Positions 11,803 to 13,582 of a stretch of DNA of 64,000 bases are shown here, one piece after another (position 1 is the stretch's first letter; every line of letters begins with the position of its first letter). The stretch covers positions 1-64,000 of the forward strand of contig JAJZVQ010000002.1 in NCBI GenBank assembly GCA_021845575.1, written 5' to 3'. The notes beneath the pieces are model-generated. The model saw only the letters and a list, made by a program, of their open reading frames with translations, searched no databases and was not told the DNA's origin. Position numbers and translations under genes: made by a program. The stretch comes from Microcaldota archaeon. GTDB taxonomy: Archaea > Micrarchaeota > Micrarchaeia > Micrarchaeales > Micrarchaeaceae.

Positions 11803-11940
11803 ACTGCATCGCTTTCTCTGCTGCAAAATGCATATCCTCTATTTTTAATTAACCTTGAATGGCACCTAGTTATAAATCAATGGAAACATACACCTTTATA
11901 AAGATTGTTTTTATATATAAATATATTTGGTGATTAAACG

Positions 11941-12327
11941 GTGCAAAAAAAAGGTTCAAAAAAAATAATAAATAAGGAAAAAATTGACAATAAAAAAAAC
12001 AGCGACAACAGCGAATATTTAAAACCCGTAATTAAAATAGAGAACATAGTGGTCAGCGCCTCCCTGCATGCTGTAATAGACTTATACGAATTATCTAAAA
12101 ATGTTAAGGCGGTTACATACGAGCCTGAACAATTTCCGGGGGCAATATTTAAGGTAAGCGAACCTAAAGCGGTTATAATATTATTTAAAAACGGCAAAAT
12201 GATATGCACTGGGGCAAACAACGAACCGAATATAAGGAAGGTGCTGGAATACGCTGCAGGCATAATCTCAAAATATGTGCTTGAAGTTTTGCCTGCCGAG
12301 AAAAAGACTGCTGAAAAAAAGAAATAA
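11941..12327 (+). CDS. tbp: TATA-binding protein-like, single TBP repeat (half-length)
   Basis: Residues about 33-112 match one repeat of TBP: KIENIVVSASL, then YEPEQFPGAIFKVSEPK and LFKNGKMICTGA, including the phenylalanines that kink DNA in TBP. Normal archaeal TBP is about 180-190 aa with two such repeats; this 128-aa protein has only one, plus a Lys-rich N-terminus and a Lys-rich tail. The flanking sequence has no remnant of a second repeat. If functional it would have to bind DNA as a dimer. The start is GTG at 11941, following TGGTGATTAAACG. It may be the main TBP or an accessory factor. Confidence 0.82.
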   Translation: MQKKGSKKIINKEKIDNKKNSDNSEYLKPVIKIENIVVSASLHAVIDLYELSKNVKAVTYEPEQFPGAIFKVSEPKAVIILFKNGKMICTGANNEPNIRKVLEYAAGIISKYVLEVLPAEKKTAEKKK

Positions 12328-12331
12328 AATT

Positions 12332-13462
12332 TCAGGATTTGGCAATTTTTCGTACTTTTTCGTCAAAGGTTTCAAAAAACTTTTTCCACGAATAATACTT
12401 CTTTACCCTCTTTAGTCCCTCTTTTCCGATATCACTTGCTATCAATTTATGCTCTGCGATGAATAGCATTTTGTCCGCCATTTCTTCAGTGTTATTCACA
12501 AGGAAACCAGTCTTGTTATTGATTATTGTATCTTTTGGGCCTCCTTCATTAACTGCTATTACCGGTTTCGACGAAGCCATTGCCTCTAATGGCACAAGGC
12601 CATAATCTTCGTTTATCGGGGGGTATAAGACTGCGGTGGCCTTTGAAAAGAGTTCTTTTTGCATTTCTTCGCTGACATTTATCAAAATTTTGACGTCACG
12701 TGTTTTTTCTGCCATTCTTTTTATCTTTTCGTAGTAGGATTGGAAGAGGAGGTCTTTGGACAGCGCACCCGATATCACAAGCTTGTAACCCTTCTTTCTT
12801 CTTTTGAATTTTTCAAATGCGGTTATTGCATAATCCTGCCTCTTGTTTGGGGATATCCTGGAAGGATAAAAGAAGTATTTTTCATCTCCTGAATTTTTAT
12901 ATGACTCGTAATCGATGCCGCCATTCAATACTTCCGAATCCCGTTTATAATATTTTAGGATTCTGGATTTCGTGTTTGCGCTATTCGCAAATATGAACTC
13001 AATCTTCTTTACCACTTGGCTGTCAATGAGCTTTACTCCTTTTGCGCCAAGGGCGTATACTGGCTTTTGATGCCATTTTTTGAGTGCAAGCCTGAATTCG
13101 TATAAATCGTAGATATCCCTCATTGGCGTATGGCAATACCAAAGGACCCTTTCATTTTTGTTTCTTATCCAGTGGCTTGGAGACATGTGCGCGTTTATTA
13201 CGTCGTAGTCCTCCTTTATCTTAAAATTATAGAAAGTCAGGCCGTAATTAAGCCCCTGCATCACTCTTCCGTATGGGATAATCTTTTTTATGCTATTGTT
13301 TCCCACCACCTCTATATCCAAATCCTCAAACTCTGGAAATGTGGTTTTCTTGTTGTACTCCGCAGTGTATATTTTTGCATTATAATGTTGTGCTATTTTT
13401 AAAAGGACCCTTTCTGCACCGCCGTAAAGTGTAAGATTTGATTGCGCTATTACCAATTTCAA
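12332..13462 (-). CDS. Glycosyltransferase family 4 (GT-B)
   Basis: A 376-aa GT-B fold glycosyltransferase. The N-terminal acceptor domain starts with LTLYGGAERVLLKIAQHY; the C-terminal nucleotide-sugar domain has YPSRISPNKRQDYAI and the EX7E-type motif EDYGLVPLEAMASSKPVIA. It resembles ALG2/ALG11-like mannosyltransferases used in glycan-lipid or N-glycan assembly; such a role would suit the Asn-X-Ser/Thr-rich secreted proteins encoded nearby, but the donor and acceptor are unknown. Start: TTG at 13462 after an AAGGTGGG site; a GTG at 13471 lies within that site. Confidence 0.88.
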   Translation of the reverse strand: MKLVIAQSNLTLYGGAERVLLKIAQHYNAKIYTAEYNKKTTFPEFEDLDIEVVGNNSIKKIIPYGRVMQGLNYGLTFYNFKIKEDYDVINAHMSPSHWIRNKNERVLWYCHTPMRDIYDLYEFRLALKKWHQKPVYALGAKGVKLIDSQVVKKIEFIFANSANTKSRILKYYKRDSEVLNGGIDYESYKNSGDEKYFFYPSRISPNKRQDYAITAFEKFKRRKKGYKLVISGALSKDLLFQSYYEKIKRMAEKTRDVKILINVSEEMQKELFSKATAVLYPPINEDYGLVPLEAMASSKPVIAVNEGGPKDTIINNKTGFLVNNTEEMADKMLFIAEHKLIASDIGKEGLKRVKKYYSWKKFFETFDEKVRKIAKS

Positions 13463-13582
13463 AATTCCCACCTTGAATAATTTTTATTGCTTATTTATAC
13501 AAGAATTACTAGCAATTAATAAATAAGATAATGTTTAAAGAATTTATTATTTCTTTGTAAGCTTTAATCGCTTTGTGGTATA

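Follow-up and report, generated by a model that had tools for sequence, protein, structure and literature searches.

Single-lobe TATA-binding proteins in Micrarchaeota and the apparent re-fusion of their lobes

Can a TATA-binding protein (TBP) with one lobe be complete and, if so, with what would it pair? The two-fold pseudosymmetry of TBP has long been taken as the relic of a homodimer, and the locus described here raises the question in a living archaeon. The window, that is the whole analysed stretch of 64,000 nucleotides from a Micrarchaeota genome, carries a gene that an earlier note had read as a TBP with one repeat, needing to homodimerise and thereby resembling the proposed ancestor of TBP.

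A complete single TBP lobe in the window

The gene lies between two genes on the opposite strand, and encodes a lobe of the type that we call B, as distinct from a paralogue A found elsewhere in the genome:

10687-11826, minus strand: neighbouring FAD reductase-like gene (name from sequence only)
11910..11925, plus strand: candidate TATA box of the window gene, TTTATATATAAATATA (from sequence; position inferred), at -31 to -16 relative to the start codon
11941..12327, plus strand: single-lobe TBP, paralogue B; ORF of 128 aa with a GTG start
12031..12276, plus strand: sole TBP lobe, a complete match to Pfam PF00352
12043..12045, plus strand: Asn35, central minor-groove contact in the NIV strand, invariant in 77 aligned single lobes
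12118..12141, plus strand: stirrup YEPEQFPG including the first kinking phenylalanine, F65, near-invariant in A- and B-type lobes
12184..12186, plus strand: F82, the second kinking phenylalanine, invariant in the 77 aligned single lobes
12332-13471, minus strand: neighbouring glycosyltransferase (name from sequence only)

The Pfam TBP profile matches the window protein once, at residues 31-112 and over the whole profile (2-85 of 85), with 82.7 bits (cut-off 22.9 bits) and an E value of 1.7e-23; in the whole-genome search the lobe scores 83.6 bits. Outside the lobe, paralogue B has an N-terminal tail of some 28 residues, rich in Lys and Asn, and a Lys-rich C-terminal tail. The EQFPG and GKMICTGA blocks and the kinking phenylalanines on which the single-repeat reading was founded are all present, and the DNA contacts, whose loss would have counted against a TBP, are conserved (N35, V37, F65, F82, I88 and T90). 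Based on established structures, we equate these contacts with N69, V71, F99, F116, V122 and T124 of yeast TBP, and we take YEPEQFPG to be the TFB-binding stirrup, which in canonical TBP belongs to the C lobe. A structure model of the window protein has a pLDDT of 95-98 across the lobe, and Foldseek aligns 84 columns of it to a single lobe of human TBP (1cdw) with an rmsd of 0.8 Å; the closest solved structure is that of Sulfolobus acidocaldarius TBP (37%).

The window protein thus shares with canonical archaeal and eukaryotic TBP the lobe fold, the DNA-contact residues, the stirrup and the co-occurrence with TFB, but lacks the two tandem lobes in one chain that characterise the latter. Searching the whole genome with PF00352 revealed no second lobe in the flanks of 11941-12327, bearing out the suggestion that no remnant adjoins the gene, and together with the sequence itself this rules out a frameshift or a lost second half. 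The same one-lobe architecture is found in 15 further orthologues of the same family and nine of the sister family, and nucleotide changes among them are overwhelmingly synonymous (dN 0.12-0.19 with dS saturated; 0.005/1.2 and 0.046/1.34 in closer pairs). An artefact of truncation or assembly might be suspected in a draft of 48 contigs, but dozens of genomes, five of them single-contig (G008, G009, G024, G030 and G039), share the architecture and the gene is under purifying selection, so that this explanation is refuted for practical purposes. The window ORF is a complete, conserved one-lobe TBP.

The remainder of the source genome, a 779-kb draft estimated to be 94% complete, contains exactly one other place matching PF00352, C14:2459-2704, which is unlinked to the window and likewise single-lobe. 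It encodes a 116-aa protein (P0002), the paralogue A, beside rpl21e. As to a full TBP elsewhere in the genome, no two-lobe TBP was found by the PF00352 search of the whole draft, but a second, divergent single-lobe one exists. A complete TFB of 356 aa with a Zn ribbon and two cyclin repeats is encoded as well, as is RNA polymerase subunit B', indicating that the basal apparatus is archaeal with its TBP in halves. Alongside TFB and archaeal RNA polymerase, the sole TBP is here the A/B pair, and in most genomes of the sister family it is A alone.

Two paralogues and the spread of single-lobe TBPs

In 30 of the 37 genomes of the window's family (f1) there are precisely two single lobes, at unlinked loci, and most of the other genomes are less complete; in the sister family (f2) one single lobe is found in 15 of 23 genomes and two unlinked ones in six. 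Type A is present in almost every f1 and f2 genome examined and is the sole TBP of most f2 genomes, single-contig G039 included; type B occurs in f1 and part of f2. As B has been gained or lost across f2, it is not essential everywhere. The two are sister clades in the lobe tree (98/90 together, 100/100 for B alone), and B would go back to a gene duplication in the order's ancestor. Each has its own neighbourhood: rpl21e adjoins A in 18 of 21 f1 loci and 27 of 29 f2 loci, and a glycosyltransferase adjoins B in 23 of 25. The gene for rpl21e also adjoins the two-lobe Micrarchaeota TBP in 19 of 20 loci, and the rpl21e-linked site is one orthologous locus carrying one lobe or two.

Both paralogues are under strong purifying selection. 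The residues N35, V37, F65, F82, I88 and T90 and the YEPEQFPG stirrup are identical in the two classes, and what sets the classes apart lies in the helices H1 and H2 and the strands S1 and S4-S5. In the central strand, A lobes as a rule have Ala at position 38 where B lobes have Val. Within f1, where B is fixed, A sits on a long branch of the lobe tree (0.31).

We surveyed 164 Micrarchaeota genomes of at least 85% completeness from 24 families. A two-lobe TBP is found in families f3-f12, and single lobes in f1, f2 and f13-f24, about 14 of the 24; the exceptions among the latter are G010, with a stray canonical TBP, and G059, with a young tandem. A phylum-rank lineage, here called 'X' (19 genomes; reached via locus L137, NCBI name Diapherotrites Zod_Metabat.1420), has one-lobe TBPs for the most part, many of them just 88-124 aa long, and Iainarchaeota have mostly a two-lobe TBP, with a single lobe in one genome (G284). 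Outside these three groups, in an archaea-wide sample of 150 genomes, TBPs are two-lobe among the matches listed. The number of TBP lobes thus varies across archaea, against the usual assumption that it is fixed.

Several loci met in the survey deserve mention in their own right. The TBP in G010 (L003, on C43) is a canonical full protein of 185 aa in a Micrarchaeota bin that also holds single lobes; it was rejected as a native full TBP since its lobes group with a Bathyarchaeota TBP (L187; 100/96 and 99/92), so that it probably comes from a stray contig. The tandem in G059 (L020/L114, on C39) is a very recent in-frame fusion of A type, in which the C-terminal 31 residues are the same in both lobes and which the contig end cuts. 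Genomes of family f14 (L047-L052; G116, G117, G119 and G120) carry up to three closely similar one-lobe TBP genes each, and in G120 two of these lie near each other. In Vulcanisaeta sp. JCM 14467 (L185; NZ_BBDM01000010.1) a canonical TBP extends over two overlapping frames with the break between the lobes, which may reflect a frameshift or a sequencing error, or be a true split. An ordinary archaeal TBP in a record labelled 'Proteobacteria bacterium' (L186; JAJPHT010000029.1) indicates a mislabelled or mixed MAG.

Monopartite TBPs have been reported before (Brindefalk et al. 2013; Ravarani et al.) and resemble the present ones in being lone TBP domains in archaeal proteins; single-lobe archaeal TBPs are also noted in PMC7221094, citing Brindefalk 2013. 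The parts of these reports known to us do not describe sole-TBP lineages, an A/B pair or re-fusions, and a survey of DPANN (PMC8407392) says of TBP only that it is conserved. Our literature search returned no account of a single-lobe protein as the sole TBP of Micrarchaeota, and we did not find an earlier description of sole-TBP status in large clades, of the A/B pair or of repeated re-fusion.

How the lobes would pair

As a saddle needs two lobes, genomes with A only must use a homodimer. The need for dimerisation put forward in the earlier note therefore stands, but not its restriction to a homodimer in the source genome, where the divergent one-lobe TBP means that the window protein may pair with its paralogue rather than with itself. 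We regard it as probable that the lobes pair as a saddle, most likely A:B here and A:A in A-only genomes, B having arisen by duplication and the lobes having been re-fused elsewhere. In the scheme that we infer, two single lobes would dimerise, with a preference for A:B, and come to lie side by side as the usual TBP saddle; this dimer would sit on the TATA box, bend the DNA there with its two phenylalanine pairs, bind TFB and bring in the RNA polymerase. The saddle of the source genome would most likely be a heterodimer of B from the window and A from C14, beside rpl21e, and that of A-only relatives an A:A homodimer. Elsewhere in Micrarchaeota, in Iainarchaeota and in the third related phylum, two lobes would have been joined again on a single chain, in events separate from the origin of canonical TBP. 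The structure model of L210, a naturally occurring tandem whose two lobes are very similar, is a TBP saddle with a pLDDT of 93 and TM scores of 0.91/0.93 to Pyrococcus woesei TBP; it makes dimerisation of such lobes plausible, and does no more than that.

The A:B saddle appears most likely in f1 because A and B are co-retained in nearly all genomes and A diverged once B was fixed; this pairing is read from co-retention and the sequence classes, and structurally B homodimers would be equally open. The paralogues might instead form separate homodimers, A:A serving as the general factor and B:B acting at a subset of promoters, comparable to haloarchaea and Methanosarcina, whose genomes likewise encode multiple TBPs, although theirs are each complete two-lobe proteins and the Micrarchaeota genes each a half. 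That A by itself suffices in most f2 genomes and that B resides at a different locus, is more divergent and has been gained or lost in f2 would fit such a division of labour, but we consider it rather unlikely given that f1 retains both in nearly every genome, that the long branch of A coincides with the fixation of B, as partners would show, and that position 38 differs so consistently between the classes.

A mechanism without the A:B or A:A saddle is harder still to accommodate. The single TBP domains of RNase HIII and DNA glycosylase are known to act without a second lobe, so that the window protein could in principle be a monomer or have another role, such as half-site binder or regulator, an unrecognised protein serving as general TBP. 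These domains are single copies of the same fold, but they are joined to enzymes and their sequences are distant, whereas the window protein closely resembles true TBP. With TFB present and no further TBP in these genomes, the DNA contacts and TFB stirrup retained and the same rpl21e-linked locus holding a two-lobe TBP in sister families, this reading seems very improbable.

The saddle of paired lobes also raises the question how a symmetric saddle keeps transcription one-directional. Counting TATA-like 7-mers upstream of genes, we observed a peak at -30 in A-only G039 (5 against 0.8 expected) and in G009, which has A and B (16 against 5 expected), both with small counts and uncertain start codons; a canonical control gave 23 against 8.6 expected at the same position. 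How symmetric the TATA motif is, which might betray a symmetric TBP, did not differ from the canonical control.

Origin of the single lobe and of the two-lobe proteins

Profiles that separate the canonical lobes well (N +18.6 bits, C -22.9 bits) give single lobes scores between -4.3 and +7.7 bits, B lobes scoring -4.3, and the window-type lobe thus has neither canonical N nor canonical C identity. A split canonical TBP, with A as the N lobe and B as the C lobe, is ruled out both by these scores, in which neither paralogue shows canonical lobe identity, and by their position as sisters among the single lobes.

Two origins were weighed. The clade may have split off before the TBP duplication without ever having had a canonical two-lobe TBP, in which case the single lobe would be the undoubled pre-duplication protein, kept as an obligate dimer, and later re-duplications would repeat the original event. 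In keeping with this, single lobes branch where the canonical N and C lobes part (100/100), their scores against the two canonical profiles are nearly equal and single-lobe lineages are basal in both Micrarchaeota and Iainarchaeota in the rpoB' tree. Against it, the profile scores of most single lobes favour the canonical N lobe by a small margin (+2.7 to +7.7 bits), the alignment of 85 columns is too short to choose between an N-lobe origin and a primitive lobe (AU p=0.395), and with an Asgard/Crenarchaeota outgroup the clade nests beside DPANN with canonical TBP (99/94 and 97/91). We consider a primitive lobe, and with it an undoubled ancestral TBP, to be distinctly unlikely. Because DPANN with canonical TBP lie outside the clade, the species (rpoB') tree favours a later loss of the C lobe followed by long change. 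Of the suggested resemblance to the ancestor of TBP, what survives is that the lineage passed through a one-lobe stage and re-fused its lobes; the rpoB' tree speaks against direct descent from that ancestor.

The two-lobe TBPs of the three phyla (Micrarchaeota, lineage 'X' and Iainarchaeota) differ from canonical TBP in inter-lobe spacing and, apparently, in independent origin. Their lobes are 51-81% identical to each other, compared with 37-59% in canonical TBPs, and one branch (100/99) parts all three-phyla lobes from all canonical N and C lobes; a tree joining their C lobes to canonical C lobes was rejected (AU p=0.004). All 81 canonical TBPs have six residues between the lobes, whereas all but two of 52 three-phyla proteins have 7-11, one of the two exceptions being a lipoprotein-like protein and not a TBP. 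Judged by their sequences, these proteins are not repeat-by-repeat orthologues of canonical TBP. A single fusion before the three phyla split was rejected (AU p=0.0006), a single fusion within Micrarchaeota was not (p 0.455 and 0.333), and on the rpoB' tree the lobe number must change five times within the three phyla. Very young fusions are seen in G191 (L246, with 81% identical lobes), G192 (L210) and G059 (L020, truncated where the contig ends), and the lobes have apparently been re-fused several times.

Some living organisms have one lobe as their only TBP, others have it as two gene products and several, apparently, as a newly fused chain. With all three states alive, the order homodimer, heterodimer, fusion and lobe specialisation becomes directly testable, and with it the origin of TBP from paired halves in living cells.

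Two further proteins extend the range of TBP-like lobes. Besides a normal re-fused TBP, genome G191 encodes a 726-aa ORF (L245; C8:8000-12500) in which four divergent TBP lobes are followed by an apparent membrane segment and an extracellular-type tail. In G199 (L247; C1:22500-26500), a 218-aa ORF carries a lipoprotein-type signal (LLAGCTSN) ahead of two divergent TBP-like lobes, and seems to be an exported TBP fold.
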